DNA of 64,000 nt from positions 2,046,001 to 2,110,000 of the forward strand of contig NZ_JAUSXY010000001.1 of NCBI RefSeq assembly GCF_030944625.1, given 5' to 3'. The notes below the pieces were generated by a model. It had not been told where the DNA came from. It did no database searches and saw only the letters and a program-made list of their open reading frames with translations. Positions within the stretch are counted from its first letter, which is position 1; the number at the start of each line of letters is the position of its first letter. This document shows positions 16,540 to 17,362 of this stretch, in pieces. This DNA is from Arthrobacter sp. SLBN-112 (GTDB lineage Bacteria > Actinomycetota > Actinomycetes > Actinomycetales > Micrococcaceae). The position numbers were made by a program, and so were the translations under genes.

Positions 16540-17362
16540 GTGTCTGAGCAGGAGCTCGAGGTAACCGAGTCTGGGCTGGAAGAGTCCCAGGACGTCGCGG
16601 CAGAAGCCGGTGAAGAGTCCGAGGTTGAGTCCTTCGCGCCCGAATCCGACGACGCCGGCTCCGATGCTGACGACGTCGCCGGCGAAGAAGCCGACGCCGC
16701 AGACGACGGCGACGACGAGTCCGCCGACGCCCTCGCCGCCGCAGCGGCTTCCGCAGCCGCTGATCCCGCCGAGGAGTTCAAGGCCAAGCTGCGCCGCCAG
16801 GAGGGTGACTGGTACGTCATCCACTCCTACGCCGGTTACGAGAACCGTGTGAAGGCAAACCTTGAAACCCGCATCCAGACCCTGGACATGGAAGATTACA
16901 TCTTCGAAATCCAGGTGCCCATGGAAGAAGTCGTGGAGATCAAGAACGCCCAGCGCAAGGTGATCAACCGCGTCCGCATCCCGGGCTACGTCCTGGTCCG
17001 CATGGACCTGACCGACGCCTCGTGGGGCGGCCGTCCGCCACACCCCCGGCGTCACCGGCTTCGTGGGCAACGCCCACAACCCCGTCCCACTGCGCCTGGA
17101 CGAGGTCTTCTCCATGCTCGCCCCTGTCTTCGAAGAGGAGCAGGCCGAGAAGGGCAAGCCGGTCAACAAGCAGAACCAGGCTCCCGTGGCCGTCGACTTC
17201 GAGGTCGGCGAGTCGGTCATCGTCAAGGAAGGTCCGTTCGAGACCCTCCCCGCCACGATCTCCGAGATCAAGCCCGAGTCCCAGACCCTCGTGGTGCTGG
17301 TCTCCATCTTCGAGCGCGAAACGCCTGTCACCCTGGCGTTCAACCAGGTCTCCAAGATCTGA
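16540..17362 (+). pseudogene. nusG: NusG, frame broken by one extra base (probable sequencing error)
   Basis: NusG binds RNA polymerase to modulate pausing and Rho termination and couples it to the ribosome. From GTG 16540 (AGGAG upstream; ATG 16510 also possible) the frame encodes a long acidic N-terminus and the NGN domain (EGDWYVIHSYAGYENRVKAN to GYVLVRMDLTDASWG). Near 17024-17032 the frame shifts by one: the reading would be SWGAVRHTPGVTGFVGN if one G in GGGGCGGCCGTCC were removed. The rest, including the KOW domain (VDFEVGESVIVKEGPFETLP) to NQVSKI, continues in the next frame and stops at 17362. As written, translation would run on to 17397 with an unrelated tail. The corrected product is 273 residues. 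Confidence 0.93.

Follow-up and report, generated by a model that had tools for sequence, protein, structure and literature searches.

An extra base in nusG and a 500-base grid of insertions in an Arthrobacter genome assembly

The nusG locus as assembled

The stretch of DNA analysed here (the window, 64,000 nucleotides) corresponds to G000:C1:2046001-2110000, G000 being the genome under study, which is a single contig of 4,386,623 bases rated 99.67% complete. The usual gene order places nusG between secE and rplK-rplA, and this order is found in the window. Assembled nusG occupies positions 16540..17362 of the plus strand, downstream of secE (16141-16425) and upstream of rplK (17491-17922) and rplA (18102-18809), each of these neighbours scoring above its NCBIfam cut-off. 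A tRNA-Trp gene (anticodon CCA) is located just 5' of secE, at 15985-16058.

The gene was delimited from the sequence and its reading frames. It begins with a GTG codon at 16540 and ends with the stop of its C-terminal frame, a TGA at 17360-17362, which gives a length of a whole number of codons plus one base. The N-terminal part is open from the GTG and comprises an acidic extension and the NGN domain, of which it holds the first two thirds (16540..17028, plus strand; Pfam PF02357). The remainder of NGN and the KOW part are encoded in another frame (17063..17362, plus strand), which in relatives is shared with the N-terminal part. NGN followed by a C-terminal KOW part in one frame, by which a NusG would be recognised, is not found in the assembled gene. 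Sequence and reading frames placed the changeover around 17024-17032, as the original prediction had stated, and the 13-base word quoted there has a single occurrence in the window, at 17024-17036.

The break had been described as separating the NGN half from the KOW half, which proved inaccurate: it is inside the NGN domain. The PF02357 match of the N-terminal frame covers residues 90-162 and profile positions 2-62 of 93, while in the protein of the relative G017 (L145; NCBIfam TIGR00922 nusG, 186.8 bits against a cut-off of 135.7) the match reaches profile position 92 of 93. With the match ending at position 62, the uncorrected frame would be without both the last third of NGN and the C-terminal part. 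As read from the sequence, the assembled product would retain about two thirds of NGN, lose the C-terminal part and gain an unrelated tail running to the next stop at 17395-17397. The tail and the missing C-terminal part had been foreseen; the loss within NGN had not. Pfam KOW was tried as a means of recognising the C-terminal half and discarded as uninformative, since it matched neither the C-terminal half of this nusG nor the intact relative. The only KOW match in the genome is within rplX.

Related nusG loci were compared using BLASTN. The alignment held 112 rows, 3 of which were the window's own locus, leaving 109 relatives: 29 loci from same-genus genomes and 80 from named contigs, two sets that may overlap and do not represent 109 independent species. 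The same-genus search covered 59 genomes including the window's own, and the best 29 of 35 matching loci were used; a match was present in 35 of 36 same-genus relatives, the exception being a genome rated 68% complete. The named loci were the best 80 of 349 matches and came mostly from Pseudarthrobacter, Paenarthrobacter and Arthrobacter. DNA identity to the nearest relatives was 96-97% over 583 bases. All 109 relatives have one base fewer at this site, and in all 109 the two halves share a frame that no stop interrupts. The additional base is in the GG pair at 17029..17030 (plus strand), where the BLASTN alignment shows a single G in relatives and which is on the 500-base grid described below.

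Two conserved halves that form one frame in relatives would also be expected if programmed ribosomal frameshifting or transcriptional slippage restored full-length NusG. Frameshift sites commonly have a nearby stop codon to pause the ribosome, and a run of bases. No such stop is close to the site, the first frame continuing to 17397; the longest run there is four bases; and the arrangement is found in 0 of the 109 relatives. Recoding at this site is scarcely credible, and we regard it as the least probable of the readings considered.

A second intact nusG had been named as one part of the evidence that would tell against an error. None was found in the genome, either by a search for the NusG domain, which gave one match in all, or by a DNA search with the gene, which returned the gene once and, elsewhere, a match of 30 bases to its 5' part.

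Census of private frame-breaking indels

Frame-breaking indels were counted in approximately 0.8 Mb of G000 around the window and in the matching parts of the relatives G017 and G006, using a three-way alignment. Conserved genes were recognised by the codon-position bias of the differences between two of the genomes, and the third was then tested for frame-breaking indels private to it. An event was accepted if it stood at least 60 columns away from either end of the gene, if its flanks shared at least 80% identity and if no other indel that changes the frame occurred within 60 columns. The genes tested numbered 437 in G000 (473,351 aligned bases), 450 in G017 and 450 in G006. A first census by TBLASTN had been polluted by spurious antisense open reading frames in the GC-rich DNA, and was replaced by these codon-position-filtered gene sets.

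Private frame-breaking events numbered 27 in G000 (23 insertions, 21 of one base and 2 of two bases, and 4 deletions), 3 in G017 (all deletions, no insertions) and 8 in G006 (6 insertions and 2 deletions). In a looser census of the first 0.4 Mb, made without the filters, frameshift-like genes were seen in 18 of 255 genes of G000, 9 of 256 of G017 and 7 of 253 of G006; the contrast is smaller there, and this counts against an artefact.

Twenty of the 23 private coding insertions of G000, each in a different gene, fall at genome positions 26-55 modulo 500. Only 1.9 would be expected in the phase band 20-60 (binomial p 2.6e-19); the band was picked after inspection of the data, and p is still below 1e-15 after multiplication by 500. 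A scan of integer periods between 100 and 2000 ranked 125, 500, 250 and 100 highest, that is, 500 and its divisors. The phase increases with position (r 0.91): it is 26-36 at 1.91-2.07 Mb and has reached 55 at 2.59 Mb. Leave-one-out prediction of the 20 positions left residuals of at most 8.5 bases, with 18 of the 20 within 4. The private insertions of the two compared relatives (6 in G006, 0 in G017) showed no clustering at 500. A near-fixed phase of private coding insertions in one assembly, with no such phase in these two, is the pattern expected of seams between consensus windows.

The clustering is weaker when non-coding sites are included. Among all 54 private single-base insertions, 20 are at phase 20-59, the Rayleigh p is 0.0017 and period 500 ranks 13th; natural intergenic indels could form the background. 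Off the grid are also 3 of the 23 private coding insertions and all 4 private coding deletions; these, like the weaker clustering, tell against a seam artefact. The three insertions (G000:C1:2231923, 2336396 and 2521801) may reflect genuine differences or the way the alignment was made. No excess of mismatches was seen near the seams (0.040 to 0.058 across 13 offset bins). A common CGGCC-like motif, created by three of the insertions, was considered and dropped once the grid had been found; most of the listed insertions are without it by eye.

The position on the grid bears directly on an ordinary sequencing error, that is, a homopolymer miscount at the short G run unrelated to consensus windows. 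Homopolymer indels are said to be the predominant errors of long-read data (PMC12007338), and 13 of the 18 on-grid single-base insertions duplicate a neighbouring base. A miscount predicts no 500-base period, however, and 5 of the 18 duplicate no neighbour, a count that also weighs somewhat against a seam artefact. The run of four G before the nusG site is, moreover, equally long in the window and in relatives, the extra base being in the pair at 17029-17030. A simple miscount is thus very unlikely, and the cause looks like a seam between consensus windows instead.

rplE and other interrupted genes

A second core gene of the window is interrupted on the same grid. As assembled, rplE (uL5) extends over 52012..52594 of the plus strand, from an ATG at 52012 read from the sequence, and its frame is broken near the start, with the Pfam matches Ribosomal_L5 and Ribosomal_L5_C downstream of the break. 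The extra base, at 52029..52029 (plus strand), is absent from G017 and G006, the two relatives with which it was compared. From 17029 to 52029 the distance is 35,000 bases, or 70 x 500 (a single base shorter when the additional G of nusG is placed at 17030). The gene is missing from the coding census because its insertion is within 60 columns of the gene start. The uL5 C-domain was found once in the genome, at rplE. Between rplR and rpsE, a non-coding GGG at 54030..54032 (plus strand) contains one extra G, which is likewise on the grid and absent from G017 and G006. The window has nine further private single-base insertions, which are off the grid phase.

The relatives of ten affected genes, nusG among them, were scanned for names. 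On-grid single-base insertions were thereby assigned to genes whose relatives are named asd, aspartate-semialdehyde dehydrogenase (G000:C1:2037028), glmM, phosphoglucosamine mutase (G000:C1:2146533), and atpD, ATP synthase beta (G000:C1:2494049).

A true recent mutation would give a strain that lives without full-length NusG. Bacillus subtilis and some Escherichia coli backgrounds tolerate deletion of the gene, so that loss of NusG is in principle not impossible. The site nevertheless falls on the artefact grid, no second nusG was found in the genome, and rplE and the genes related to glmM and atpD would have to be lost as well. A free-living bacterium without uL5, NusG, GlmM and the F1 beta subunit together is not credible. 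True loss is accordingly exceedingly unlikely, and the joint interruption of nusG, rplE and the genes with relatives named glmM, asd and atpD argues for an artefact.

Faulty joining of consensus windows as the probable cause

The extra base in nusG is almost certainly an assembly artefact. That an assembly or sequencing error was involved had been proposed from this locus, and the proposal is supported by the 500-base spacing that the site has in common with 19 further frame-breaking insertions of this assembly, by the on-grid break in rplE and by the finding of no second nusG. We are highly confident that the frameshift is absent from the organism, and it probably arose in the joining of 500-base consensus windows. 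In the living strain nusG is most likely whole, and the break most likely has no biology to explain and is not a real feature of the genome.

Window-wise polishing was probably the source of the grid. The default window of Racon is 500 bases, and PacBio Quiver/Arrow works in 500-base chunks. Under such a scheme the consensus of the genome would be worked out separately for each successive 500 bases of the draft, and the resulting blocks would be strung together. A small fraction of the joins would retain a surplus base, sometimes two, often as a copy of a neighbouring base; we infer that neighbouring consensus windows may both keep, or misplace, the base at their border, which would appear as an extra base at the join. 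Insertions left by such seams would keep a nearly constant phase modulo 500, which would creep as the polished length departed from, and slightly outgrew, that of the draft. One seam would then fall in nusG and one in rplE. Inspection by eye of the contig's first 6 kb showed no dnaA-like frame, so the polished contig may have been left unrotated.

Windows of this kind are described in the literature. In Racon, contigs and reads are split into non-overlapping windows and a consensus is made for each (PMC11232133), and 500-base windows are used in a read-correction method (PMC9636371) and in a gap-filling method (PMC8041623). No description of the exact seam error was found in the literature searched.

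The immediate effect of this reading is that a bacterium is no longer wrongly credited with living without an intact NusG, or without uL5. Nor should other frameshifts of this genome be taken as pseudogenes: within the 0.8 Mb examined, the same artefact seems to have broken 20 of the 437 conserved genes, in spite of the completeness rating of 99.67%. The modulo-500 test is a cheap check that can be applied to other assemblies. Consensus-window seams may constitute a readable fingerprint, such that the modulo-500 phase of private frameshifts reveals artefactual gene breaks without reads, and many public long-read assemblies may carry such false breaks in core genes; this wider proposal is advanced tentatively, and we are somewhat inclined to doubt it.

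The locus resembles that of an intact NusG (TIGR00922) of Pseudarthrobacter and Arthrobacter in the conservation of both halves, with secE before and rplK and rplA after, and is unlike it in the one extra base inside NGN, which belongs to this assembly. The proposed origin resembles Racon-type window consensus (PMC11232133), in that a contig is divided into non-overlapping windows with a separate consensus for each. The frame-breaking errors of long-read assemblies (PMC12007338) are similar in being short indels that interrupt conserved genes and that relatives do not have. They differ in that the events reported here are mostly insertions placed on a 500-base grid and are not governed by homopolymers.
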